In this document: positions 4,361 to 16,260 of the stretch, piece by piece
How the letters are laid out: each line of letters starts with the position of its first letter
How positions within the stretch are numbered: position 1 is the first letter of the stretch
From: a virus
DNA: 34,958 nucleotides
Direction: 5' to 3' (one strand)
Virus record (IMG/VR): IMGVR_UViG_3300021963_005132
Span: 1-34,958 of that record
Position numbers and translations under genes: made by a program
The notes under the pieces: generated by a model
What the model was told of the DNA's origin: nothing
The model's database searches: none
What the model saw: the letters and a program-made list of their open reading frames with translations, nothing else

Positions 4361-4801
4361 TTACTGACACCAGCTTTGCTTGGCGTCACCGTAATATTCT
4401 CGAGCTAGTCCATTAGCAATTAAACCTGCTCGAACACTCTGACCATTGACTAAGATATCTCCAAGCACTCTACCCCCAAATTTATCCCAGGCATATAATG
4501 TAACTTGTATCTTACCACCCTGAGCGATCAACTGCGTGGTCCACTTACTGGCTAACTGTGCTCTTTGATCTTCTTGTGGACACTGTGCTCTGTGTCCTTT
4601 TTCTGGTGTATCCACACCGAAGATACGAACTGCTAGTTCTGGTTTGAGCGGAGCAGGTAAGAACGGCGCTGCGATAACAATAGTATCGCCATCACTTACA
4701 CGTAAAACTTGAGTATCATAAGTTGCTGAGTTCTTAGGCATCTTTTGAGCAAATGCCTGGGTAACTAACAGTAGCGAGAGAATTGCAATATATTTTTTCA
4801 T
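4361..4801 (-). CDS. Exported thermonuclease-type (SNase-like) nuclease
   Basis: A 146-residue protein with a clear signal peptide (MKKYIAILSLLLVTQAFA, cut before Gln19) and a staphylococcal-nuclease fold domain. The metal and catalytic region is visible as VSDGDT, VRIFGVDTPEKG (Arg and Glu) and DKFGGRVLGDI (second Arg). Such enzymes cut single- and double-stranded DNA or RNA with calcium. Its ATG overlaps the gp43 stop codon (ATGA), so it is coupled to the polymerase although its product should be periplasmic or secreted. It could degrade extracellular DNA, host DNA after envelope breakdown, or competing phage DNA; these roles are inference. Confidence 0.88.
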   Translation of the reverse strand: MKKYIAILSLLLVTQAFAQKMPKNSATYDTQVLRVSDGDTIVIAAPFLPAPLKPELAVRIFGVDTPEKGHRAQCPQEDQRAQLASKWTTQLIAQGGKIQVTLYAWDKFGGRVLGDILVNGQSVRAGLIANGLAREYYGDAKQSWCQ

Positions 4802-7308
4802 CCGAATAATCCTTCTAGAGATGCGGTTTCTTTAACTTGCCAGCCAATACAGCTGAGTAAAGAGTTAAGGGGTTCAAGAAAAGACTTCTCAAACATTTTA
4901 TCATAATCAATATATTCCCGAATTTTAAATTCAGGAGGTACTTCACCAGCAAAGGTAATAACATGGGTACCGAGTGGATTGGGTTCACGAAGATACAAGA
5001 ACTTAATCTTATCGCCCTCCTGAATCAACTGATACTTTTTCTCTAGCCCCTTACTTGTGACTAGATGATTATATATGAGAGCACCCCTAACGTGTATAGG
5101 GGTACCCTTCCTAAAGATACCGTTAGAGTCTGCGTACTCTTTGATACCGTTAACACCACGAGGGAAAGCAATATCTTCCGGCTCAAGGCTATGCCACCTG
5201 GCTTCCAGATCTACCACATACTTTCTTAAAGTAGTCTCGTCCTTGGTAAGTGCAATAGCTACCGCCTCTTTCAATGCCTTTCGTACCGGGGCAGGGGTAG
5301 AGGATCTAACAATCTCCATACCCAACACTTTTAGTTTAGGGGGATCGTATGCAACGCCCTCAGAGTTATAAACGTTAACAGCGTAACGTTTCTTAGCAAT
5401 CCAGATACCTCTATCGGCAATAATCTCACGCTTGAACTTAATCTTACGTTGGTAAGTATTCAGATAATCCGAAATAGACTCGCAAGCATCATTGATCGTC
5501 GGTTCAATTTGAGTTGCGCAGTACTTATCGAGTACGTCAACGATTGCTGACTTTTCTCTACCTGCAAGATTCTTCTCAACAAGAGCACCAAGAGTAATAT
5601 AGGTAGAATCGGTATCAGAGTAAAAAGAATATTCAACATCTTTAGTTCCTACTTCTTTATTAACAAACTCGTTTAATTTTTTAGCAACTGATCTAATTAG
5701 AAACTGACCGGTCATAGTAATACCTTCGGCAATACGAATATCGTAATACCTGAAGTGAATATTACCCATTGCACCGTAAAGTGAGTTCATCAAGATCTTA
5801 GCAGCCATCTGCTTGGAGTTAAGACTAGAGATCAGACCAAGATACTTTTTATCTTTAGTTTCCTCGTACATAGTCTGGGCAGCTAACATTTCTTTCTTCG
5901 CCACCTGCCTAGAGGTAAAGTAAAACTCAATAAGCTCAGGGAATATACCTTTCTTAGTTCGAGTAAAACTTTGTCCATTTGCAGTCATAGACCAGTTATT
6001 CTTATGTAACTCTGAAGTATTGACCTCATGGTCTATCAACCGCTGAATCGATCTCTCGTCATCTGCTAAGAACTTCTGACCATCTACCAGCGTCTCTGGA
6101 GACATATTCCAGGTCATAATGATAGAGGGGTATAGGGAGGTAGCGTCAAAAGATACTACCCAATCGTATCGAGAAGGTTTAGGCTCTTTAACATACGCAC
6201 CCATAATAGTACGATCCTTATCTGGATCAACACCCGGCGGATTATGTACTATAATATTATCTTTCAACAACTTATTGTATAAGATACAATCCCAGGTTCT
6301 TACAGATGAAAAGATATCGGTATAGTTACACTTAGCATCATAAGCCATCGTAAGAATCAAGTTAATGATCCTCATCTTATCCTCTAACCTATCCACCAAC
6401 TCTACGTCGCGGATATTATAGTCCACAAACAGCTCCCAGTCCTTGGTATAGAACTCTTTAAACGTTGCATGAGGATTCTTTAACTTATTTTCACCGAGCT
6501 CTTCCATAGCAACGGTATCCAGTTTATAGTTCTCAACCATCTTATAAGAAAACTTCTTATACAGATCCATAAAGTCGAGAATAGAAATACCGCACCACTC
6601 ATACGCCAATTGAGTACGACCCCGGGCAGTAGGTACTTCGTACTGCCTAATAATACCCCATGGTGAGCATTCATCTAAAGCTTTCTCACCAAGCACTTTT
6701 GTAATGCGAGAAGATAGGTATGCGATATCAAATAACTGACTATTCCAGCCTGTCGTCACATCAGGATAATCGGACTTATGATGATTAATAAACTGACGTA
6801 GAAGATCGAACTCGTCTTTACATTGAACGTATACGGAATTAGGTTTCTTGCTTAGATAAGGACCGCAACCAAACGTTGTAATTACTTTGGTATTAAAGTC
6901 CTGTACAGATATAAGGGTGACTTGCTCTTGAGCAGTCCTGGGTTCAGGAAACCCGTATTCCGTTGTCGTCTCAATATCGATAGTCACAATTTTCATCAAC
7001 GATATATCGAACTCAATCATATCAGGGAACATCTTACTGATGAACTGATACGTATAACTTCTATTACCGAAGATAGGAAAGTTACTTACTTCCTTATACT
7101 GCTCAACAAAGTTTCTTGCTTCTTTAATCGTACTGAACTTAATCTTTTCAAGATTTTCGCCCCACAACGACTTAAATTCTGACGGCTTACCAGAACGAAC
7201 ATACAGGGTAGGTTGGAAAGGAATCTTTTGATTTACGCGTTTTCCATCTTTAAAACCACGAAAATGAACGTAGTTTCCACGCGTATAGATATTAGTATAG
7301 AAGAGCAT
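4798..7308 (-). CDS. 43: DNA polymerase, B family (T4 gp43)
   Basis: An 836-residue replicative polymerase with 3'-5' exonuclease. The exonuclease motifs are TIDIETT (Asp111, Glu113), TGWNSQLFDIAYL and YNIRDVELVDRL. The polymerase motifs are DATSLYPSIIMTW (A), KILMNSLYGAMGN (B) and YSDTDSTYI (C), with AKKRYAVNV nearby. The C-terminal end SLEGLFG resembles the clamp-binding tail of gp43. It is slightly shorter than T4 gp43 (898). The gene is intact and not split by an intron. The ATG has only a weak Shine-Dalgarno; a TATAAT lies 9 bases upstream without a good -35. It is transcribed away from the plus-strand block that begins at 7435. Confidence 0.97.
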   Translation of the reverse strand: MLFYTNIYTRGNYVHFRGFKDGKRVNQKIPFQPTLYVRSGKPSEFKSLWGENLEKIKFSTIKEARNFVEQYKEVSNFPIFGNRSYTYQFISKMFPDMIEFDISLMKIVTIDIETTTEYGFPEPRTAQEQVTLISVQDFNTKVITTFGCGPYLSKKPNSVYVQCKDEFDLLRQFINHHKSDYPDVTTGWNSQLFDIAYLSSRITKVLGEKALDECSPWGIIRQYEVPTARGRTQLAYEWCGISILDFMDLYKKFSYKMVENYKLDTVAMEELGENKLKNPHATFKEFYTKDWELFVDYNIRDVELVDRLEDKMRIINLILTMAYDAKCNYTDIFSSVRTWDCILYNKLLKDNIIVHNPPGVDPDKDRTIMGAYVKEPKPSRYDWVVSFDATSLYPSIIMTWNMSPETLVDGQKFLADDERSIQRLIDHEVNTSELHKNNWSMTANGQSFTRTKKGIFPELIEFYFTSRQVAKKEMLAAQTMYEETKDKKYLGLISSLNSKQMAAKILMNSLYGAMGNIHFRYYDIRIAEGITMTGQFLIRSVAKKLNEFVNKEVGTKDVEYSFYSDTDSTYITLGALVEKNLAGREKSAIVDVLDKYCATQIEPTINDACESISDYLNTYQRKIKFKREIIADRGIWIAKKRYAVNVYNSEGVAYDPPKLKVLGMEIVRSSTPAPVRKALKEAVAIALTKDETTLRKYVVDLEARWHSLEPEDIAFPRGVNGIKEYADSNGIFRKGTPIHVRGALIYNHLVTSKGLEKKYQLIQEGDKIKFLYLREPNPLGTHVITFAGEVPPEFKIREYIDYDKMFEKSFLEPLNSLLSCIGWQVKETASLEGLFG

Positions 7309-7354: not shown

Positions 7355-7362
7355 CATAAATA
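7355..7362 (+). promoter_or_regulatory. Late-promoter-like CATAAATA
   Basis: CATAAATA on the plus strand, one base from the T4 late octamer, lies 73 bases ahead of the first plus-strand ATG. The 126-base divergent gap 7309-7434 also has TATAAT at 7381-7386 without a convincing -35. Together these are the only promoter candidates I see for the plus-strand block. Confidence 0.5.
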
Positions 7363-7434: not shown

Positions 7435-8514
7435 ATGACATACAAGTACAAAAAGCTTGTGGCAATGCTTTTTGTTATGATAACTGGGAGTATTAATGCA
7501 CAGACATTAATCAATCAGGGCACTTATGACTCAAAGAGTCTAGTTGACACCAACAGTACCACTACCAGTACAAGTACGATTAACACCAACAACGTTAATA
7601 GCGGCACAGTAACTACTAACAATAATACTGTGTTAAGTGGCGGTACAACCAACACTAATAACAACAATAACGTTAATAGTGGCACAATGACCAACAACAA
7701 TAACAATAACAACGTTATGAGCGGTTCGGTTACCTATACAAATAACAACAACAACGTTAACAGCGGTACTCAAACGTTTAACAATAACAACGTTAACACG
7801 GGTGACATGACTAACCGCAATATTAATACAAGCACCAGTGTAAATACTAATAATAATGTTAACACTGGTGATATGACAAACCGTAATATTAATACTAGTA
7901 CGTCTACTTCAAACAATACCAATAATAACATTAACAGCGGTACAATGACCAATAATAACAATAATGTTAATACTGGTACAATGACTAACAACAACAACAA
8001 TACAAGTACGAGCGCTAATCAAAACGTTAATCAAAACAATAACGTTAATAGCGGAGATATGACTAATCGTAATATCAATACCAGTGATATTACGCAACGT
8101 GTTATTCAACCTCCTCCAACCGCAGTTGCGCCTACCATGATGTCAGGCGGTAATGCTGACTTATGTAGCACAGGAACAAGTGGTAGCGTACAAACTCAAA
8201 TCTTTGGTGTAAGCAGTGGTGGAACAGTCCGTGATATGAATTGCGAACGCTTAAAGTTATCTAAAACCCTGTATGACATGGGCATGAAAGTGGCCGCAGT
8301 TGCTACCATGTGCCAAGACCGTAGAGTTTTTGATGCCATGATGGCCGCAGGTACACCTTGCCCTTATGAAGGTCAAATCGGTGCTCAGGCTAAAGCTTCT
8401 TGGGAAGCTAACGCAGATAAAATACCAAAGTTAGACGAGGCAAAAACAGATGACACATATAAGAAAGTTGGCATTGGCGCTCTTCTTGGGGCTCTTGTGT
8501 TCAAGTTATTCTAA
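7435..8514 (+). CDS. Exported Asn-rich repeat protein with C-terminal membrane segment
   Basis: A 359-residue protein with signal peptide (MTYKYKKLVAMLFVMITGSINA, cut before Gln23). Residues about 45-220 are a low-complexity array built from variants of NNNNVNSGTMT and NRNINTST, almost only Asn, Thr, Ser, Gly and Val. The regular alternation suggests a beta-solenoid or amyloid-like fibre, by inference. A non-repetitive domain of about 110 residues follows, with four Cys (CSTG, MNCERL, TMCQD, TPCPYEG), then a short hydrophobic tail ([15 protein letters not shown]) that may sit in a membrane. AAAAGGAAAAGTAA precedes the ATG. Its last 65 bases overlap the signal peptide of the next gene in another frame. 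Function unknown; surface fibre, virion appendage or envelope-associated protein are options. Confidence 0.85.
   Translation: MTYKYKKLVAMLFVMITGSINAQTLINQGTYDSKSLVDTNSTTTSTSTINTNNVNSGTVTTNNNTVLSGGTTNTNNNNNVNSGTMTNNNNNNNVMSGSVTYTNNNNNVNSGTQTFNNNNVNTGDMTNRNINTSTSVNTNNNVNTGDMTNRNINTSTSTSNNTNNNINSGTMTNNNNNVNTGTMTNNNNNTSTSANQNVNQNNNVNSGDMTNRNINTSDITQRVIQPPPTAVAPTMMSGGNADLCSTGTSGSVQTQIFGVSSGGTVRDMNCERLKLSKTLYDMGMKVAAVATMCQDRRVFDAMMAAGTPCPYEGQIGAQAKASWEANADKIPKLDEAKTDDTYKKVGIGALLGALVFKLF
7564..8090 (+). repeat. Degenerate tandem repeats encoding Asn-rich array
   Basis: Imperfect units of the type AACAATAACGTTAATAGCGG recur through the gene at spacings of about 45-75 bases. Units differ mostly at synonymous positions, so selection seems to act on the protein and the array is old or kept from recombining. 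Confidence 0.7.
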
Positions 8515-10336
8515 CAGTCAATCTATTGACCCTGTTACCGGTAATTTAATAAATTACGGTATTGGTCCCACGGAAACAACAAGTACGTGGAACAACGGTG
8601 TCTATGTCAACCAACTGTGCTTTGGAGCAGGACAACCGGGTAACTGTGGTCCAAATCCCAGCATTAGAGAAGGAAACAATATCAACTTCTCTTACGGTAC
8701 TGTAGACTTAAATCAAATTGTTAATATAAACAAGGCCCTATCTATCGGTGGAAGCGGTGTACAACTTAGCGGGTTCAACTTTGGCTTTATGGCCAAGAAC
8801 GGCAACGGTTGGGATGATGGTAGACAAGATTACCTGGGTGCGTATGTTAAATTTTACAATTCAGCAGGCAGTCTTGCCTCAACTTATGATTACACAGCAC
8901 AGACTAATCAAAAATATAACTGGACACTGTTTAACTTTAGTGAAACATTTGCCAGTCCAGTTGCCGCTTCAACCTATAGTAATGCACAAGTGGGGTTTAT
9001 AGGTCGTGATAATAACTTTTGGGCAGGTACGTATGGCCCTGAAATTTACAATGTGAACTTCAGTTTAAAGTATTCAGTTAGACCCGACCCGTGTATTGCT
9101 GATCCATTATCAAGTCCTACTTGTCCAGGATATGCACTAGCTACTGTTAAAAATTCCATATTAGGATCCACAGTATCAAATGCATCTGTGACATCGTTTG
9201 TACCTGCGCCTAACTATGCATTAATTTCTCCTGGGCCAGCGGCAGGCCCAGATCCTACTAATCCTGTCCCAGGACCGCAAGGACCACAAGGACCGATGGG
9301 GTCACAAGGACCGATGGGGTCACAAGGACCGATGGGGTCACAAGGTCCGGCAGCAGGTCCGCAGGGACAAGATTCAAATCCAAATTCTATCGGCCCTATG
9401 GACAGTCCATCACAACCAGGTCCACAAGGTCCACAACAAGGGCCTGCCGCTGGCCCACAACCTGCAGGTGGGCCGCCACAACAAACACAGTCTGCTCCAC
9501 AACCGAGTTCAGGTCCAAGTCAAGCAGGACCGGCTGCAGGTCCAAATAGATCAAACGATGGCCCTAAAATGACTCCAGGCGCTGCATTAAGTATAGCAAG
9601 AACCGCGCAGGAAAAAGATAAAGCAGTACAGGCAACTGCTGTACAAACCGCAACAAGAGCATTCGAAAGTGCTATGCAAAGTTCGCAAACTGCCAGCAGT
9701 ACTGCAATTGCTATGAACCAAGACATGAGCGCGAATAGTGCTACTGCCGCGGCACAATTTGCCAGTCAGGCGACCCAGTCAAGTATGCAAATGTCTGGAC
9801 AAACGCAACAAATAAACAATGCAGGTCAAGCATATAACGGTACTGGACTTTCTGTTGCCAAAGCCAGTACAAGTATATTCAATGTAGACAGTTTAAATAG
9901 TTCTACAACAGGTCAATCGTCTAGCCAAACTTTATCGGTAACGCAATTCCGTAATGAATCAAAAAATTATGAAGTAGAAGAACCTCCAATGCAAGTAGCC
10001 GGATTTGGAGGCATAGGCAAAGCCGGAAATCCATTGTCAGATATGATGAATCAACGAATGGACATGATGCAAACTAACGTGGAACAACGTACTGAATCTG
10101 TTAAAAAGAATGTACAACCAAACGACTTAGCCGGTGGCGTTGATGTTGCCGCTATGGCACAGATTCCAAAAGGGTATGAAGCATACAGCTTAATTGTACT
10201 ACGCGATGCTCCTTTTTATAAACCTGAAACAATATACAAAAACAACCGAACAGTTGACAATGTAAGATTACTAAGAGGGTTAACAGGTGGCAGTGATGCC
10301 AAACATCAACAAATGGTTGATCAACAATACAAATAA
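8450..10336 (+). CDS. Exported collagen-like protein
   Basis: A 628-residue protein with signal peptide ([23 protein letters not shown]). Residues about 24-220 form a folded, beta-rich, aromatic domain containing Cys pairs. Residues about 263-375 are Gly-Pro-Gln and Gly-x-y triplets ([18 protein letters not shown] and related), interrupted, collagen-like. A long Ala/Gln/Ser-rich helical region and a C-terminal domain ([36 protein letters not shown]) follow. Collagen-like regions trimerise and are common in phage fibres, but a cleavable signal peptide is unusual for a virion protein. The start overlaps the previous gene by 65 bases, suggesting coupling. I do not recognise a family for the terminal domains. 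Confidence 0.85.
9290..9343 (+). repeat. Three perfect 18-bp tandem repeats
   Basis: Three identical copies of GGACCGATGGGGTCACAA encode GPMGSQ within the collagen-like region. Identity at DNA level, unlike the neighbouring degenerate triplets, indicates a recent expansion and a likely length-variable spot. Confidence 0.9.
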
Positions 10337-10345
10337 GGAAGTAAA

Positions 10346-10942
10346 ATGGCAGAAGAAATTAAGAACGTTAACGCTAAGATTGACGAAGCAGAAGCAGCAG
10401 TAAAGAAGTATGCAAGTAAAGACACTGTTATCAGTATTGGTGGTTATGAATTTACACCTGCAAAACTCATGGTTGCATTTACCTTAGTATCATCTACACT
10501 AGGTGGGTTGTATGGTGCTTTTGAAGTATACAAAGATTATCAAGGCATGAAGAAAAAGATTGCTGAATATGTTACCCCTGACTTAACTGAAATTTATAAG
10601 AAGATGGAAGTGTTGGACGCTAATACCAGTAAGATGGTTGAGTATACAGATACAATTAAGATAGACCTTAAAGGTGATGTTCGTAGATTGGAAAGTGTAG
10701 TTGAGAATGTTGAGCGTAGTAGCAAGACTGATCAACGACTAACCGATACTGGAATGAAAGAAATCAAACGTGATGTTGATGGAACTGTAAAAGAAATTAA
10801 ACGCGATGTTGATGCAACTTTAAAAGACATCAATCGCGAACTGGTCAAGAATCAAAAAGAAACACAAACTGAAATAAGAGCTCTAAGAACTGAAGTAGAT
10901 TCTAAAATTAAAAAGGCATTGGATAATCCATTGTCAAACTAA
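10346..10942 (+). CDS. Membrane-anchored coiled-coil protein
   Basis: A 198-residue protein with a short acidic N-terminal helix, one predicted membrane segment (KLMVAFTLVSSTLGGLYGAFEVY, about residues 39-61), then a long charged helical region to the end. Residues about 135-165 contain a near-repeat MKEIKRDVDGTVKEIKRDVDATLKDINREL, typical of a coiled coil. It has no signal peptide. The ATG follows AAGGAAGTAAA, 9 bases after the collagen-like gene stop, so it is in the same operon. The architecture resembles spacer or tether proteins linking the inner membrane to something else. Function unknown. Confidence 0.8.
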   Translation: MAEEIKNVNAKIDEAEAAVKKYASKDTVISIGGYEFTPAKLMVAFTLVSSTLGGLYGAFEVYKDYQGMKKKIAEYVTPDLTEIYKKMEVLDANTSKMVEYTDTIKIDLKGDVRRLESVVENVERSSKTDQRLTDTGMKEIKRDVDGTVKEIKRDVDATLKDINRELVKNQKETQTEIRALRTEVDSKIKKALDNPLSN

Positions 10943-10943
10943 A

Positions 10944-11084
10944 ATGTTCGGCACTGCTCTCGCTATCTACATGTACGTACAAGCACCACAATGTATTAGG
11001 TGGACTTGGAGTGGCGATGTTTATAATAGAAAAGTGGTATGTTTAGAGTGGCGTAAAAAAGAGAAAGAGGAAAAAAAGAAATGA
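10944..11084 (+). CDS. Tiny basic hypothetical protein
   Basis: A 46-residue reading frame, MFGTALAIYMYVQAPQCIRWTW and onward, ending in a Lys/Glu tail (RKKEKEEKKK). It starts one base after the stop codon of the preceding gene and its TGA overlaps the ATG of the next (ATGA), which strongly suggests a translated, coupled gene. The N-terminal 14 residues are hydrophobic but short for a membrane helix. There are two Cys. Function unknown. Confidence 0.6.
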   Translation: MFGTALAIYMYVQAPQCIRWTWSGDVYNRKVVCLEWRKKEKEEKKK

Positions 11085-11578
11085 TTGATCCTATCACAGC
11101 ACTTGCAGGCATTACGTCTGCAATTAGCATGGTTAAGAAGGCGGCAAAAGTAGCCAACGACTTAGGTTCTCTTGCCCCAATGATTGGCAAAATGTTTGAT
11201 GCCAAGAGCACCGCAACAAAAGCATTAGTTGAAGCTAAGAAATCTAAGAAAAGTTCTAACATGGGAACCGCTCTCCAGATTGAGATGGCGTTAGAGCAGG
11301 CCAGAGCTTTTGAAGAAGAACTAAAATTACTGTTTATGCAGACAGGCAAGATTGACGTATGGAATAAAATCAAGGCTCGTCAAGCAGAAATGGATGCAGA
11401 CGATGCTAATGATATAAGACTCCATAATGCACAAGAACGCAAACGTAAACAAAAAGAAGCAGAGTTAAATGAATGGGCAATGATTATAGGTGCAGTTTCA
11501 TTTATCGTATTCCTATTTGCAATCGGTAGTTATGAACTGATACAATGGTGTCAAACAAGTGCAAGGTGTGGAAGATGA
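11081..11578 (+). CDS. Coiled-coil protein with C-terminal membrane helix
   Basis: A 165-residue protein. The N terminus (MIDPITALAGITSAISMVKKAAKVANDLGSL) is an Ala/Gly-rich amphipathic helix; residues about 60-132 are charged and helical (EQARAFEEELKLL, NAQERKRKQKEAELNEW); one membrane helix (MIIGAVSFIVFLFAIGSYELI) lies near residues 134-154. From memory, proteins starting this way occur in other marine T4-like phages without assigned function. It is coupled at both ends by ATGA overlaps. The layout suggests a membrane-anchored complex with its neighbours; membrane remodelling is one possibility. Confidence 0.78.
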   Translation: MIDPITALAGITSAISMVKKAAKVANDLGSLAPMIGKMFDAKSTATKALVEAKKSKKSSNMGTALQIEMALEQARAFEEELKLLFMQTGKIDVWNKIKARQAEMDADDANDIRLHNAQERKRKQKEAELNEWAMIIGAVSFIVFLFAIGSYELIQWCQTSARCGR

Positions 11579-11727
11579 ACGAATATCAAAAAACTTTTGA
11601 TATGTGTTTAAAGATATTTGTATATGGTAGCGTGGCATTATACTTTTTAGGGTTCTTAAAATTCTTACCTGATGACTTATCGAATAGATTGGTTAATGGT
11701 TTGATAGGTAGATTTTTACCTGGTTAA
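11575..11727 (+). CDS. Small single-pass membrane protein
   Basis: A 50-residue protein, MNEYQKTFDMCLKIFVYGSVALYFLGFLKFLPDDL and onward, with one predicted membrane helix at about residues 11-28. The ATG at 11575 overlaps the preceding stop codon; a longer frame from 11545 would lie wholly inside the upstream gene and is rejected. Small hydrophobic proteins in lysis cassettes can be holins, but there is no endolysin beside it, so no function is assigned. Confidence 0.7.
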   Translation: MNEYQKTFDMCLKIFVYGSVALYFLGFLKFLPDDLSNRLVNGLIGRFLPG

Positions 11728-11748
11728 TAAATAATAAAGGAGAAAATT

Positions 11749-11865
11749 ATGTTAGATATTTTACTTTGGGTAGCAGTAGGTGCATTTATTGGCTGGAATT
11801 TTCCCCAACCATTCTGGGCTAAAATGATGCAAGAAAAAATACAAGCAATGATTGCAAAGAAATAA
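11749..11865 (+). CDS. Tiny single-pass membrane protein
   Basis: A 38-residue frame, MLDILLWVAVGAFIGWNFPQPFWAKMMQEKIQAMIAKK, preceded by AAAGGAGAAAATT, an excellent ribosome-binding site. Residues 1-18 form a short hydrophobic helix, followed by a basic amphipathic tail. An ATAAATA sequence at 11727-11733 could be a weak late promoter. The size and charge pattern fit small phage membrane proteins, but function is unknown. Confidence 0.68.
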   Translation: MLDILLWVAVGAFIGWNFPQPFWAKMMQEKIQAMIAKK

Positions 11866-11875
11866 AGGAAGAAGT

Positions 11876-12424
11876 ATGGCAGAAGAAAAAAAACCTTTAA
11901 GCAGAAGTGAACGTGAAGCTCAGATCAAAGACAAAGCAGGGTGGCTTATTACCGTACTTGCTGCTCTTCTGGCCATTAATACCTATATTGCTTCTGGCAA
12001 TAGTTCTAAGGTATTAAACAATACTATTAAAGCAAACGATACCTGGGCTTTTTATCAAGCTAAGTCTATTAAGCAGACACTGGCTGAAATGGCTAGAGAC
12101 GATGCAGTTGAAAGAAAACAATTTGATAAAGCAGATAAGTTAACTGCAAAGATTAATAGATATGAGAGTGAACCTGCAACAGGTGAGGGTAAGAAAGAGT
12201 TGATGGCTAAGGCTCGTGCACTAGAAGCAGAGCGCGACGAAGTTCGTAAATCAGGCCCCTGGATGACGTTTGCAGGATCAGGCTTTCAGATCTCAATTGT
12301 GTTACTATCTGCTAGTATCTTAGCTGTTGCTCCTGCCCTGTACGTTGCAAGTATTATAGTCGGAGCTTTATCTGCGTTACTAATGAGTCAAGGAATATGG
12401 CTCTGGTTACCGTTAACTCTGTGA
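11876..12424 (+). CDS. Membrane protein, last gene of the plus-strand block
   Basis: A 182-residue protein starting MAEEKKPLSRSEREAQIKDK. A first membrane helix (GWLITVLAALLAINTYIA) is at about residues 22-39; a helical, charged soluble region of about 80 residues follows; the C terminus holds two close membrane helices (FQISIVLLSASILAVAPALYVASIIVGALSALLMSQGIW, given here as one stretch of two helices). AAAGGAAGAAGT precedes the ATG; a start at 11852 has no such site. It ends 12 bases into the 3' end of the convergent peptidase gene, with no terminator visible between them. Function unknown. Confidence 0.75.
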   Translation: MAEEKKPLSRSEREAQIKDKAGWLITVLAALLAINTYIASGNSSKVLNNTIKANDTWAFYQAKSIKQTLAEMARDDAVERKQFDKADKLTAKINRYESEPATGEGKKELMAKARALEAERDEVRKSGPWMTFAGSGFQISIVLLSASILAVAPALYVASIIVGALSALLMSQGIWLWLPLTL

Positions 12425-13120
12425 TACAATAAATTCGGCTTCAGGTATTCGTACCTTGCCGTTTTTACTTCCAAGTATGATAACGATACGGCGGCCAACT
12501 TCTGTATCTACCATCATCACAATGCAACCACCGGCTGCATTTGTCGTTCCGGTCTTACTAACAATAAAGCTATGACGCTTACCAACAATAGGGTTGGTGT
12601 TATTAAACGTCTGTACTTGCTTACCAGTCTTAATAGTCAGTACAGCTGTCTGACTAGCTTTAACAATTTCAGGATAGTAACTTGCTTCAAATACCAGTTT
12701 CAGCAGATCTAAGGCTGTGCTAATGTTCATTGGACTGAGACCGGTTGGGTCAATAAACTTTGTTTTAATCATCCCTAAAACATAAGCTTTTTCATTCATG
12801 TATCGAATACATTGAAACCGACCACCTGGAAAATTATCACATAATACTTTAGCAGAATTATTATCTGATTTTACTAAAGCCAGTTGAATGTGTTGCTCTC
12901 TTGTATACTTACCGAGCTTCTCTTGCATATTTTGATTATTATCAAGTACAGCCATTACAGTCATTAGCTTAGTAATACTGGCGATAGAACGAACTACATT
13001 AATATTTGAACCTTCAATCAAGTTACCCTGAACATCAGTCTCCAACCAGCTCTGGGCGGTAATGTTAACTGCAAACGCATTACTAACAAATAGTAATGCG
13101 GCAAGTACAAACAACTTCAT
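12413..13120 (-). CDS. Exported D-Ala-D-Ala carboxypeptidase/endopeptidase-like protein (S11)
   Basis: A 235-residue penicillin-binding-protein-type serine peptidase. A signal peptide (MKLFVLAALLFVSNAFA) precedes the catalytic set: SxxK as SITK (48-51), SxN as SDN (85-87) and KTG at 189-191, in correct order and spacing for S11 enzymes such as DacA or PBP7. It lacks the C-terminal beta domain and membrane anchor of DacA, so it may be a soluble periplasmic enzyme. It would trim or cut peptidoglycan cross-links. Phages usually use amidases or lysozymes; a role in wall editing during infection, slow lysis or superinfection control is inference. A start at the ATG at 13120 has AGGG about 8 bases upstream. 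Confidence 0.88.
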   Translation of the reverse strand: MKLFVLAALLFVSNAFAVNITAQSWLETDVQGNLIEGSNINVVRSIASITKLMTVMAVLDNNQNMQEKLGKYTREQHIQLALVKSDNNSAKVLCDNFPGGRFQCIRYMNEKAYVLGMIKTKFIDPTGLSPMNISTALDLLKLVFEASYYPEIVKASQTAVLTIKTGKQVQTFNNTNPIVGKRHSFIVSKTGTTNAAGGCIVMMVDTEVGRRIVIILGSKNGKVRIPEAEFIVSQS

Positions 13121-13297: not shown

Positions 13298-13675
13298 TCA
13301 TTTGGTATGAATTGTGCCATTTGTTTGACTATCCCCGGGTGCTACCCTGTAATTATCTTCTACTGAATCAGGTGTTGATACTTCTATTATAGTACCCTCT
13401 TCAATACATATCAACTGATGGGGTAGTAACGGCTTATTGTGCCATGTATCCCCTTGATATAATTGAACGAATTTTTCTGAAGCATCGGTAGTATCGATCC
13501 AACGAACCTCAAACCTACCCGATAGCACATACCACGTTTCATCTTTCTGTGCATGAAAATGCATAGAAAATTTTGATGCTCTTTTAAAGTGTAAAAGCTT
13601 ACCACAATATTTATCATTGGTAGCCCAGATCAGCTCGTGGCCCCAACCCTTCTCTACAAAGCCTTCTAAACGCAT
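13298..13675 (-). CDS. Cupin-fold protein, mannose-6-phosphate isomerase-like
   Basis: A 125-residue single-domain cupin. The metal-binding region is visible as SMHFHAQKDETWYVLSG and GDTWHNKPLLPHQLICIEEG, with His and Glu ligands at expected spacing. Such small cupins often accompany sugar-nucleotide operons and may be sugar-phosphate isomerases or epimerases, though many are uncharacterised. Its ATG overlaps the stop of the heptose kinase gene, so it belongs to the ADP-heptose operon. It might replace an isomerase missing from the pathway, but this is speculation. Confidence 0.8.
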   Translation of the reverse strand: MRLEGFVEKGWGHELIWATNDKYCGKLLHFKRASKFSMHFHAQKDETWYVLSGRFEVRWIDTTDASEKFVQLYQGDTWHNKPLLPHQLICIEEGTIIEVSTPDSVEDNYRVAPGDSQTNGTIHTK

Positions 13676-14418
13676 ACTATTTCCTCTAACGTGGGAGCAT
13701 ATACACCCATGTGTTGTACTGTTACTGACCCTGCCTGTACAGCAAATGCAATTGCTGTTGACATCTTACGTTCAAGAAGATATCCATATACTAAGGCGGC
13801 TAAGAATGTATCACCTGCGCCACAGACGTCAACAACGTCGATGTCAACTGCCGGGTACTGCCTACCCTTATACCGGGCACCTTGTTTACCTGTGGTTACA
13901 ATTAATTCTGTAGGAAATGTCCTTGCTAAGCTATTCTCCGAGCTATTAATTTTAACTATTGCTCCCTCAAATCTGGCCAAGTCAGTTTTCTTCGTGTCAA
14001 TAAAAATTGGCACAGAAGTCGTTTGAATTAACTGTTCAACTAATTCATATGTAACAACACCCTTGTCATAATCTGAGATAACTATTGCATCATAGTTAAG
14101 TGTAACATTTGGTAATATATCTACGGGGACAGCAAACACGTCCTGGTCAATACGAACTATATGATGACCTGTTCTACTATCGATAAGTCTAATTTTTCTT
14201 GATGGTTCACGGGTAATAAGCGTTACCTCGCAACCTAGTTTTTCTAGATTATTCCTGACATTATAAACCATGCCTGGTTTTTCTTCCGAGCGAAGATATT
14301 TAAAAATAGGAACCGGGGCTTCCGGGCTTATGCGATCTACTGTACCGTACTGGTACTCATCGATACAGCTATCACCTATTAATAATATTTGATATGGTTC
14401 TTGTGGAGGAGTAATCAT
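13666..14418 (-). CDS. hldE-N: PfkB-type heptose-7-phosphate kinase (HldE N-domain-like)
   Basis: A 250-residue ribokinase-family protein. DSCIDEYQYG at the start, RISPEAPVPIFKY (characteristic of RfaE/HldE) and the ATP-site motif DVCGAGDTF near residues 200-208 are visible. HldE domain I phosphorylates D-glycero-beta-D-manno-heptose 7-phosphate at C1. It is somewhat shorter than the bacterial domain (about 315 residues). In bacteria this domain is usually fused to the nucleotidyltransferase; here they are separate, overlapping genes in inverted order. The frame can be extended to TTG codons at 14430, but ATG 14418 is preferred. It overlaps its upstream neighbour by 47 bases. Confidence 0.87.
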   Translation of the reverse strand: MITPPQEPYQILLIGDSCIDEYQYGTVDRISPEAPVPIFKYLRSEEKPGMVYNVRNNLEKLGCEVTLITREPSRKIRLIDSRTGHHIVRIDQDVFAVPVDILPNVTLNYDAIVISDYDKGVVTYELVEQLIQTTSVPIFIDTKKTDLARFEGAIVKINSSENSLARTFPTELIVTTGKQGARYKGRQYPAVDIDVVDVCGAGDTFLAALVYGYLLERKMSTAIAFAVQAGSVTVQHMGVYAPTLEEIVCV

Positions 14419-14773
14419 CAATGCGTTCAAAAAATTCTAATCGTTTAGCATACTGACTGCCTATCACAGTCTTATTGCGCCAGTCACTACCTACTACCAT
14501 TATAGAGGGTTTGATCTGTTTAATCCACATCTCAAGCTCCTCGTCACTACTGAATACTTCCACTTCATCTACTGCCTTAAGATTAAGTAACATAGTCTTA
14601 CGCTGAAATGAATCGTAAATAGGTCTTGACGGACCTTTTAACTGTTTAATTCTCTCATCACTATCAATAGCTACAAATAACTTATCACCTAAGCTCTTAG
14701 CATAATTAAGAAGAGCCAGATGACCAAGATGTAAAATGTCAAATGTACCATTAACAAAGACAGACTTAGACAC
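14372..14773 (-). CDS. hldE-C: Heptose-1-phosphate nucleotidyltransferase (HldE C-domain-like)
   Basis: A 133-residue cytidylyltransferase-fold enzyme. FVNGTFDILHLGHLALLNYA carries the nucleotide-binding HxGH, and DDYSSTRTISNI near the C terminus matches the conserved STR region of RfaE domain II; VVGSDWRNKTVIG is also typical. It should transfer AMP to heptose 1-phosphate. The start is a GTG that overlaps the stop of the epimerase gene. Related enzymes include glycerol-3-phosphate cytidylyltransferases, but the kinase and epimerase beside it favour the heptose pathway. Confidence 0.87.
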   Translation of the reverse strand: MSKSVFVNGTFDILHLGHLALLNYAKSLGDKLFVAIDSDERIKQLKGPSRPIYDSFQRKTMLLNLKAVDEVEVFSSDEELEMWIKQIKPSIMVVGSDWRNKTVIGSQYAKRLEFFERIDDYSSTRTISNIINR

Positions 14774-15530
14774 CAGAGTATACCTTATTGAAGTTAGTCA
14801 TATCTGCACACGTGTAACGTTGGTAGGAATGCTTAAGATGTTCAGGGAAAGGAATATATTCAATTCTAGCATTATACTTTTCTGCAACCTCTCCAGCTAC
14901 ATCTAAAAAGGATTTAGTCTTACCTGTACCTACATTCCAAATACCGCTTACTTTAAATTCCATAAAACGAATATGTGCATCGATAACAGTCTCCACGGGT
15001 ACAAAATCTCTTAAAAAGTTTTCGCTATTTTCAAATACATTAATTACTCTTGAATTAAGCGCTTGATAAGTAAACTGATGATAGGGGCTAGCTTGTGATC
15101 CTTTATGATCTTCATGTGGACCGTATACATTAAAGTATCTGAATCCCTGTGCCTGTTTACCAGAAGCATACAGTTCGAACATATATTTTGACCATGCATA
15201 GGGTGTTCTAGGATCAACTGGTGAAGTTTCTGTAAACAATTGGTTCAAACCATATACAGACGCCGAACTTGAATACTGGAAAGGTATGTTGTAATAATTA
15301 CACATATCTAAAAGATCAACACTGAATTTGTAATTCTGTGTCATTATTTTCTCTACATTACGCTCTGTTGTAGAAGAGATAGCACCTAGATGAATAACCT
15401 GTTCGAACTGCTCTATGTCCGGGAATACATCTCCCCACTCGAAACCAGTTACAGTATGACCAATACGCTCTAAATGAGGTACAAGGTTCTGACCTATAAA
15501 GCCTCTATGACCTGTTACTAAAATGTTCAC
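14766..15530 (-). CDS. hldD: NAD-dependent epimerase, HldD (ADP-heptose 6-epimerase)-like
   Basis: A 254-residue extended short-chain dehydrogenase. The Rossmann motif GHRGFIG is at the N terminus, the catalytic pair appears as SSSASVYG followed by YAWSK, and FRYFNVYGPHEDHKGSQASPYHQF resembles HldD substrate-binding sequence. HldD interconverts ADP-D-glycero- and ADP-L-glycero-manno-heptose. It is shorter than E. coli HldD (310). The frame extends to 15626 inside the previous gene, but a GTG at 15530 directly before NILVTGHRG, one base after the upstream stop, is the natural start. Neighbouring split HldE genes support the assignment; another sugar epimerase remains possible. Confidence 0.85.
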   Translation of the reverse strand: MNILVTGHRGFIGQNLVPHLERIGHTVTGFEWGDVFPDIEQFEQVIHLGAISSTTERNVEKIMTQNYKFSVDLLDMCNYYNIPFQYSSSASVYGLNQLFTETSPVDPRTPYAWSKYMFELYASGKQAQGFRYFNVYGPHEDHKGSQASPYHQFTYQALNSRVINVFENSENFLRDFVPVETVIDAHIRFMEFKVSGIWNVGTGKTKSFLDVAGEVAEKYNARIEYIPFPEHLKHSYQRYTCADMTNFNKVYSGV

Positions 15531-15531
15531 T

Positions 15532-16260
15532 TTATTTAATCCAAGGAAATTTACCTGCATACTTTGTATGCATTTTTCTGTTACCTTCGTCAAAGAACTC
15601 ACGATTAACGGAGCCCTCATTACCACCTAACCGGTATGAAAGTGTATGCTTACCCGTGCATACATAGTTATCGTGCTTAATGTTATCTTTTAAAATATTA
15701 TAGAATCTTCTATCACCGCCCCACCCGAAATCCCAGATGTGGCATACCTGACGGTAGAATGACGTCTTAAAACAATATGAACTTGTATCTATTAAATGAA
15801 CGTTTTCACCTACCCATGCAGGCCACCTACCTAAGGACTCGCAATTATCATCTGTAATATAATTTTTATCTTTATCAAAAATTTGTCTAAGCGAATAAGC
15901 CCAGTCTAGATTTTTACTCTCTATAATATTGATAAGTGACTCTACGTGACCAGGTTCAAACCAATTATCCTGATCTAAAAAGAGAACATAATCGTGATCA
16001 ATAAGATGGCCAAACCCAGCCATGATTCGGTGGCCATAAAAGCCATTTTTACCGGTATTAAACGGTAAGTCAATTCGTTTAATTTTTCCACCTGTAATAA
16101 TTCTTGCATCATTTAATACCTTATCTACTCTAGATGAAAACTCAACCCCGTCTACAACTAGAAGGTGTTCTACCTCTTTGTTTGTCTGATTTAATACCGA
16201 ATATACAGCATCAGCTAATTCAGGTGACCCTGTAGTAGGGGTTATAACTAATATACTCAA
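15532..16260 (-). CDS. Glycosyltransferase family 2
   Basis: A 242-residue GT-A-fold glycosyltransferase. The N terminus LSILVITPTTGSPELADAVYSVLNQ is the nucleotide-sugar-binding start of GT2 enzymes, and VLFLDQDNWFEPGHVESL contains the metal-binding DxD. A second region, FGWGGDRRFYNILKDN, fits the catalytic base loop. A TTG start at 16260, overlapping the previous stop (TTGA) and preceded by AGAGGG, is preferred; another TTG is 6 bases upstream. Its position ahead of the ADP-heptose genes suggests it adds heptose or a related sugar to an acceptor, by inference. Confidence 0.85.
   Translation of the reverse strand: MSILVITPTTGSPELADAVYSVLNQTNKEVEHLLVVDGVEFSSRVDKVLNDARIITGGKIKRIDLPFNTGKNGFYGHRIMAGFGHLIDHDYVLFLDQDNWFEPGHVESLINIIESKNLDWAYSLRQIFDKDKNYITDDNCESLGRWPAWVGENVHLIDTSSYCFKTSFYRQVCHIWDFGWGGDRRFYNILKDNIKHDNYVCTGKHTLSYRLGGNEGSVNREFFDEGNRKMHTKYAGKFPWIK

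Follow-up and report, generated by a model that had tools for sequence, protein, structure and literature searches.

What might a T4-like phage do with a compact set of genes whose products are exported or membrane-bound and match no enzyme? The question is raised by the IMG/VR virus record IMGVR_UViG_3300021963_005132, a 34,958-bp stretch of T4-like phage DNA analysed here over its whole length (the window). Its plus strand carries, at 7435-12424, an operon for the proteins called here P1 to P7 and for a peptide of 38 residues. An earlier sequence-only reading took these eight genes for possibly one undescribed assembly spanning the envelope. The conserved unit is three genes, P1-P2-P3, and not eight. 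We tentatively favour, at somewhat below an even chance, a reading in which these three proteins form a complex that is made late, spans the envelope, takes part in lysis and works like the spanins without being a member of that class. The computed basis of this reading consists of gene linkage and order, signal-peptide-like N-termini, the predicted fold of the P2 N-terminal domain, the homology of a P1 domain to a lipoprotein, a promoter-like motif and an enrichment of lysis genes; the formation of a complex, the topology of P3, the ligand and the disruption of the outer membrane are what we infer from it.

The core and the element before it comprise:

7355 to 7362, plus strand: CATAAATA, an element resembling a T4 late promoter, 80 nt before P1
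7435 to 8514, plus strand: P1, 359 aa, exported, with signal peptide, Asn-rich repeats, a four-Cys domain and a hydrophobic C-tail; family phrog_20531
7519 to 8100, plus strand: Asn/Ser/Thr-rich region of P1, 28-521 aa long in homologues, short or absent in marine members
8101 to 8424, plus strand: conserved domain of P1, residues ~223-330, whose Cys are invariant; a small lipoprotein in roseophage-type phages is homologous to it
8450 to 10336, plus strand: P2, 628 aa, exported, with a sugar-binding-type N-domain, a variable collagen-like linker, a long helix and a conserved C-tail
8531 to 9085, plus strand: predicted Fbs1/FBA-type jelly-roll domain of P2 (residues 28-212), assigned from AlphaFold2, VIA and the FWAG-YGP motif
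9182 to 9565, plus strand: collagen-like Gly/Pro/Gln-rich linker of P2, predicted disordered
10163 to 10333, plus strand: conserved C-terminal tail of P2, FYxPxxIY...VDNxRxLR...HQxMVxxQY
10346 to 10942, plus strand: P3, 198 aa, with one membrane segment (about residues 41-61), a coiled coil and the C-terminus NPLSN

A search of viral contigs with the C-terminal region of P1 gave at least 597 confirmed stretches, and a second query at least 593 matching ones; 80 were taken as a first set of loci. In these 80, P1, P2 and P3 almost always neighbour one another, in the same order and on one strand. A P3-type open reading frame (ORF), marked by an ending N-P-[LIM] or a close variant, lies within 6 kb downstream of P1 in 184 of the 186 fetched loci with room for one, and endings of this type number 226 among all 9000 ORFs examined, the P3-type ones included. 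The other genes are optional, with P4 in 20, P5 in 35, P6 in 12, the 38-residue peptide in 8 and P7 in 29 of the first ~80 loci. The eight-gene system thus gives way to a core that alone recurs constantly, for which the P3 linkage excludes the individually scattered homologues that the sequence-only reading had named as its counter-evidence. Carriers of the trio include T4-like phages, contigs of up to 352 kb, T7-like phages and others, among them the cultured SAR11 phages HTVC115P, HTVC023P, HTVC202P, HTVC033P, Baldr and Mosig, the T7-like Votkovvirus S28C10 and the roseophages CRP-810 and CRP-207. A host origin of P1 was considered and rejected: a single-pattern scan of 84,980 bacterial genomes found 19 P1 loci, all but a few of them on short contigs of metagenome-assembled genomes that resemble phage carry-over (not checked individually).

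Are the products exported? By a crude in-house rule, 65 of 68 dereplicated P1 homologues begin with a signal-peptide-like N-terminus, against 312 of 1063 other ORFs, as do 53 of 57 P2 homologues when alternative starts are allowed (51 with the called start). Together with the linkage to P3, these N-termini bear out the earlier view of exported proteins that are inherited with a membrane-anchored partner and directed to the envelope. A lipobox is rare (1 of the 65 P1 homologues with a signal-peptide-like N-terminus, 2 of the 51 of P2). In loci of roseophage type, a protein of 70-95 aa stands directly before P1, or overlaps it, and is homologous to the P1 domain, whose profile matches it at E ~1e-9 (hhalign probability 97%); 46 of the 51 members of this small family have a lipobox. 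Among individual loci of our set, such a small lipoprotein lies directly upstream of P1 in L084, L089, L192 and other roseophage-type loci.

In the AlphaFold2 model of P1, helices are predicted with confidence and a beta hairpin between Cys244 and Cys270 with low confidence; the Asn-rich part is unresolved. Among solved structures P1 has neither a sequence match nor a VIA-align match at Z >=2, the model being confident only in the helical C-domain, so that a known fold could be missed. BFVD holds only unnamed relatives, and Pfam gives no match to P1 at E<=1, curlin repeats included. The general build of P1 recalls T4 RI, an antiholin of the periplasm whose signal peptide is cleavable (PMC8385771). 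P1, exported and with a Cys-rich helical domain, might likewise regulate the timing of lysis, P2 and P3 then being anchors or sensors. Holin-like genes do precede P1 in Mosig, HTVC033P and S28C10, the holin label being a reading accompanied by one weak PHROG holin match. However, P1 matches no known antiholin in either sequence or structure, and a timing role would leave the sugar-binding domain of P2 unexplained; we regard it as improbable.

AlphaFold2 models residues 28-212 of P2 as a jelly roll, mostly at a predicted local distance difference test score >90. Foldseek places it at probability 1.00, with Fbs1-3 filling the top 10 rows, and in VIA-align the first eight PDB entries all belong to F-box proteins that recognise sugars, namely Fbs1, Fbs2 and Fbs3 (Z 11.1-12.7 over 151-158 residues; for Fbs1, Z 12.7 over 157 residues at ~10% identity); Vip3A, domains of phage tailspikes and CBM16 come after them, with Z 9.5-10.5. 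A sequence profile independently matches FBXO6 (E 0.0027, segment GKDTQFWAGWYGPRV), the FWAG-YGP motif of P2 aligning to QFWAGWYGPRV of FBXO6, and W191 of P2 is kept in >=90% of the aligned homologues. These models and alignments confidently predict an Fbs1/FBA-type jelly-roll fold of the sugar-binding type. In Fbs proteins the FWAG-YGP loop carries the aromatic residues that stack on the sugar; an N-acetylglucosamine (GlcNAc)-type ligand of P2, suggested by analogy, is putative. The P2 domain shares fold and loop with the FBA domain of Fbs1 and Fbs2 (FBXO2 and FBXO6, subunits of ubiquitin ligases) and differs in being phage-borne, exported and fused to a linker and a helix.

Beyond the N-domain, P2 continues with a hypervariable linker, a long helix and the conserved tail; the linker is collagen-like in the window and acidic or Lys-rich in pelagiphages. 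It is the linker and the helical part that match tail-fibre families of PHROG, which raises the question of whether P1 and P2 are virion components, either tail fibres or decoration proteins, with N-terminal hydrophobic stretches that are no signal peptides. The trio also lies near structural genes in some podophages. Yet the tail-fibre matches are limited to this low-complexity part, for which reason they were not read as a tail-fibre identity of P2, signal-peptide-like N-termini occur in nearly all homologues of both proteins, and the trio is common to phages with unrelated tails. Of the alternatives weighed here, a place in the virion seems the least probable. The simple exported fibres of the sequence-only reading likewise fit poorly with a jelly roll at the start of P2 and, at the end of P1, a Cys-rich domain shared with a small lipoprotein.

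P3 is the constant membrane partner, with a membrane-type segment in 55 of 56 homologues. The freshwater and roseophage versions are homologous (hhalign 95%). Between the pelagiphage type and the freshwater type, profile homology is not significant (hhalign 14%), and their equivalence therefore rests on position, architecture and the NPLx ending. P3 of ctXG6705 weakly matches the Rz-like phrog_312. The P3 homologues of the Roseobacter phages CRP-810 and CRP-207 (locus L084, 9213-9635, and locus L089, 3292-3873) are labelled 'lysozyme', apparently wrongly.

When would such proteins be made? ATAAATA, the core of T4-type late promoters, stands no more than 120 nt ahead of P1 in 21 of 24 loci of the gp43 type (which are not fully independent). 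Among dereplicated loci the share is 21 of 68, compared with 44 of 531 for other ORFs (Fisher p 1e-6). The form enriched upstream of P1 is NATAAATA; the exact TATAAATA is not enriched in the window, where CATAAATA at 7355-7362 is the sole copy. Timing bears on another possible role, superinfection exclusion or receptor masking, in which late exported proteins would bind envelope glycans or receptors and block adsorption or injection by other phages or by released progeny. Export, a lectin-type domain, hypervariable middle regions, the presence in many unrelated phages and the lipopolysaccharide (LPS)-type sugar genes nearby in the window would all suit it. Exclusion would be expected early, whereas the late-promoter-like element and the lysis-gene neighbourhood fit late action, and it leaves unexplained a constant membrane-bound coiled-coil protein with a fixed C-terminus. 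On balance this role appears rather unlikely, less so than a part in lysis timing.

The neighbourhood argues for lysis. Profiles for endolysin-like genes (GH19, amidase, M15, GH24 and S11), seeded from the loci themselves, gave 26 matches over the 70 dereplicated loci. The 2 kb ahead of P1 hold 12 of these and the interval from +2 to +4 kb another 7; 4 and 3 lie still further downstream, and the interval from -10 to -2 kb is empty. The adjoining 2-kb bins thus hold 19 of the 26, against 7.6 expected (p 5e-6). In several freshwater contigs, spanin-like genes and GH19 stand directly upstream of the module. The T7 spanin pair lies near the terminase genes. The trio occupies the slot just upstream of the terminase large subunit (TerL) in S28C10, HTVC202P and Baldr; in the sister phages HTVC200P, HTVC111P (terminase 95% identical) and HTVC026P this slot holds a membrane coiled-coil protein and a small Cys-containing protein with a hydrophobic N-terminus, and in HTVC112P and HTVC119P it holds other small proteins, those of HTVC112P being comparable. 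In 11 phage records that carry the module, three PHROG spanin families turn up no clear spanin outside it, apart from a match at 0.021 in Mosig.

The sequence-only reading, which named surface display among several possible roles, holds in part: the proteins are envelope-directed, and their surroundings point to late expression and lysis rather than display. Display would turn P1 and P2 into adhesive fibres with a lectin domain, on which host cells or debris clump together, akin to the 'sibling capture' put forward for phage curli (PMC7029224). The signal peptides, the lectin-type domain and the low-complexity Asn/Ser/Thr-rich and collagen-like regions of very variable length speak for it. Against it, those low-complexity parts are not conserved, as opposed to the Cys-rich domain, the P2 tail and the membrane-bound P3; an association with lysis genes needs no display; and no clumping was seen with the curli phage Melnitz, albeit a different system (PMC9004378). 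Nor was an outer-membrane secretion channel found: CsgG (PF03783) is in none of 31 records, the window included, with positive controls, many of these records, the window among them, possibly being fragments. Display is unlikely on this evidence, if the least unlikely of the alternatives.

The same search separates the trio from the curli or type VIII secretion operons published for phages (PMC7029224, PMC9004378, PMC9599517), an identity that the absence of CsgG from all 31 records ruled out. Like those of the pelagimyophages, of Melnitz and of HTVC023P-type phages, the trio belongs to aquatic phages, includes an exported repeat protein and has no assigned function; unlike them, it came with no CsgG in the records searched, and published descriptions of the curli operons mention neither the Cys-rich domain of P1 nor an Fbs1-type domain nor an NPLx coiled coil.

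How, then, could a lysis-associated complex work? P3 would sit in the inner membrane with its coiled coil, and the sugar-binding domain of exported P2 may hold a GlcNAc-type glycan of peptidoglycan or LPS, its linker, helix and conserved tail forming a bridge towards P3. The outer membrane would be the place of action for the Cys-rich domain of exported P1. Cleavage of the wall by the endolysin would then release the complex to join or disrupt both membranes. The resemblance is to two-component spanins such as lambda Rz/Rz1 and T7 gp18.5/gp18.7: both pair a membrane coiled-coil protein with one or more exported partners, have overlapping genes and include a Cys-containing exported part, and the trio often adjoins holin or endolysin genes or, in some pelagiphages, takes the slot upstream of TerL. 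The trio differs in having three proteins, in the large sugar-binding-type domain of P2, in showing no clear sequence homology to spanins and in occurring beside canonical spanins in some phages.

Several observations weigh against a spanin-like role. Neither P1 nor P2 of the window has the clear lipobox of a spanin lipoprotein. The charges flanking the P3 segment are ambiguous, higher on the N-terminal side in 12, on the C-terminal side in 26 and equal in 18 of 56 homologues; they lean towards a positive C-terminal side, which would place the coiled coil in the cytoplasm. The window has no recognised holin, endolysin or spanin, the sole nearby peptidoglycan enzyme being a convergent S11 peptidase, and in some large phages a GH19 gene lies tens of kilobases from the module. 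To our knowledge, known spanin models include neither a collagen-like linker nor an Asn-rich region. Five freshwater contigs with the module also carry canonical spanin-type genes, and the module is thus not simply a spanin substitute. Because P1 and P2 of the window lack a clear lipobox and both a periplasmic coiled coil of P3 and the function are only supposed, the trio is not classed as a spanin.

What would this mean for phage lysis? In the survey of Kongari et al. (PMC6139136), no spanin could be identified for about 13% of the phages, whose means of breaching the outer membrane are still an open question. Since the trio occurs in many aquatic phages, among them cultured phages of SAR11 and roseobacters for which no clear spanin apart from it was detected, it supplies definite candidates, testable in culture. 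A broader possibility, which we consider doubtful, is a horizontally shared three-component machine whose lectin-like subunit engages envelope sugars, links the inner to the outer membrane and disrupts the latter at lysis, so that a very large number of aquatic phages would use it in place of spanins or alongside them. In the papers searched, most subscription journals lying outside that coverage, the trio is not described as a unit, in line with the earlier impression of novelty; nothing relevant appeared there on pelagiphage proteomics, DUF4337 in phages or Asn-rich exported phage proteins. Databases call its members 'hypothetical', 'putative carbohydrate binding domain' or wrong names. P2 homologues, for instance, are HTVC033P gp45 and its S28C10 counterpart, both annotated 'putative carbohydrate binding domain containing protein', single-protein labels that, like phrog_20531 for P1, carry no function. 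The analysis provides testable labels for families annotated only as hypothetical and tells the module apart from phage curli operons.

Downstream of P3, the window continues with the optional genes and a convergent neighbour:

10944 to 11084, plus strand: P4, small protein of 46 aa, optional partner; cluster in 20 loci
11081 to 11578, plus strand: P5, 165 aa, C-terminal membrane segment, optional; phrog_32327
11575 to 11727, plus strand: P6, membrane protein of 50 aa, optional; cluster in 12 loci
11749 to 11865, plus strand: membrane peptide MLDILLWVAVGAFIGWNFPQP..., 38 aa, optional; relative in phage Mosig
11876 to 12424, plus strand: P7, DUF4337 membrane protein of 182 aa, optional; Pfam PF14235 at E 2.2e-29, cluster in 29 loci
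12413 to 13120, minus strand: exported Peptidase_S11, D-alanyl-D-alanine endopeptidase-like, convergent with P7 and outside the core; cluster in 19 loci

The ORFs and their order match the earlier description, and they are the sole plausible plus-strand genes, the remaining plus-strand ORFs of at least 80 aa lying mostly opposite longer minus-strand genes. ATGA overlaps occur at 11081 and 11575. P1 and P2 overlap by 65 nt (8450-8514), a segment that encodes the hydrophobic C-tail of P1 and the signal peptide of P2 in two frames; many freshwater loci show a similar overlap, of 59-74 nt. The frames are real, since homologues occur in tens of independent contigs, mostly at 60-90% identity in the C-terminal region of P1, and the tight operon described before is confirmed by the ORF calls and these homologues. 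Pfam and NCBIfam give no credible enzyme family for P1-P7, as the missing enzyme motifs had led one to expect, and an enzymatic function was dropped.

Like phrog_20531, phrog_32327 (P5) is a PHROG family without a function label; relatives of P5 elsewhere adjoin a holin and an M15 peptidase. The Mosig relative of the 38-residue peptide has 41 aa and lies directly before the three-transmembrane holin-like gene of Mosig. In other loci (L014, L025, L031, L056, L061 and others), P3 is often followed by two small membrane proteins, of CQDPxNW and LTGTLSGIMLA types, in the place where the window has P4-P7.

Elsewhere the window carries 17 tRNA genes, a gp45-type clamp and, on the minus strand at 4798-7308, a gp43-type DNA polymerase. 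Between gp43 and a RecA/UvsX-like gene lies an exported staphylococcal-nuclease-like protein (4361-4801, minus strand; PF00565, E 1.8e-9), whose cluster is seen in 15 loci. At 13298-15626 on the minus strand, cupin, PfkB-type sugar kinase, cytidylyltransferase-like and NAD-dependent epimerase genes form a run that resembles a nucleotide-sugar (ADP-heptose-like) pathway for LPS.

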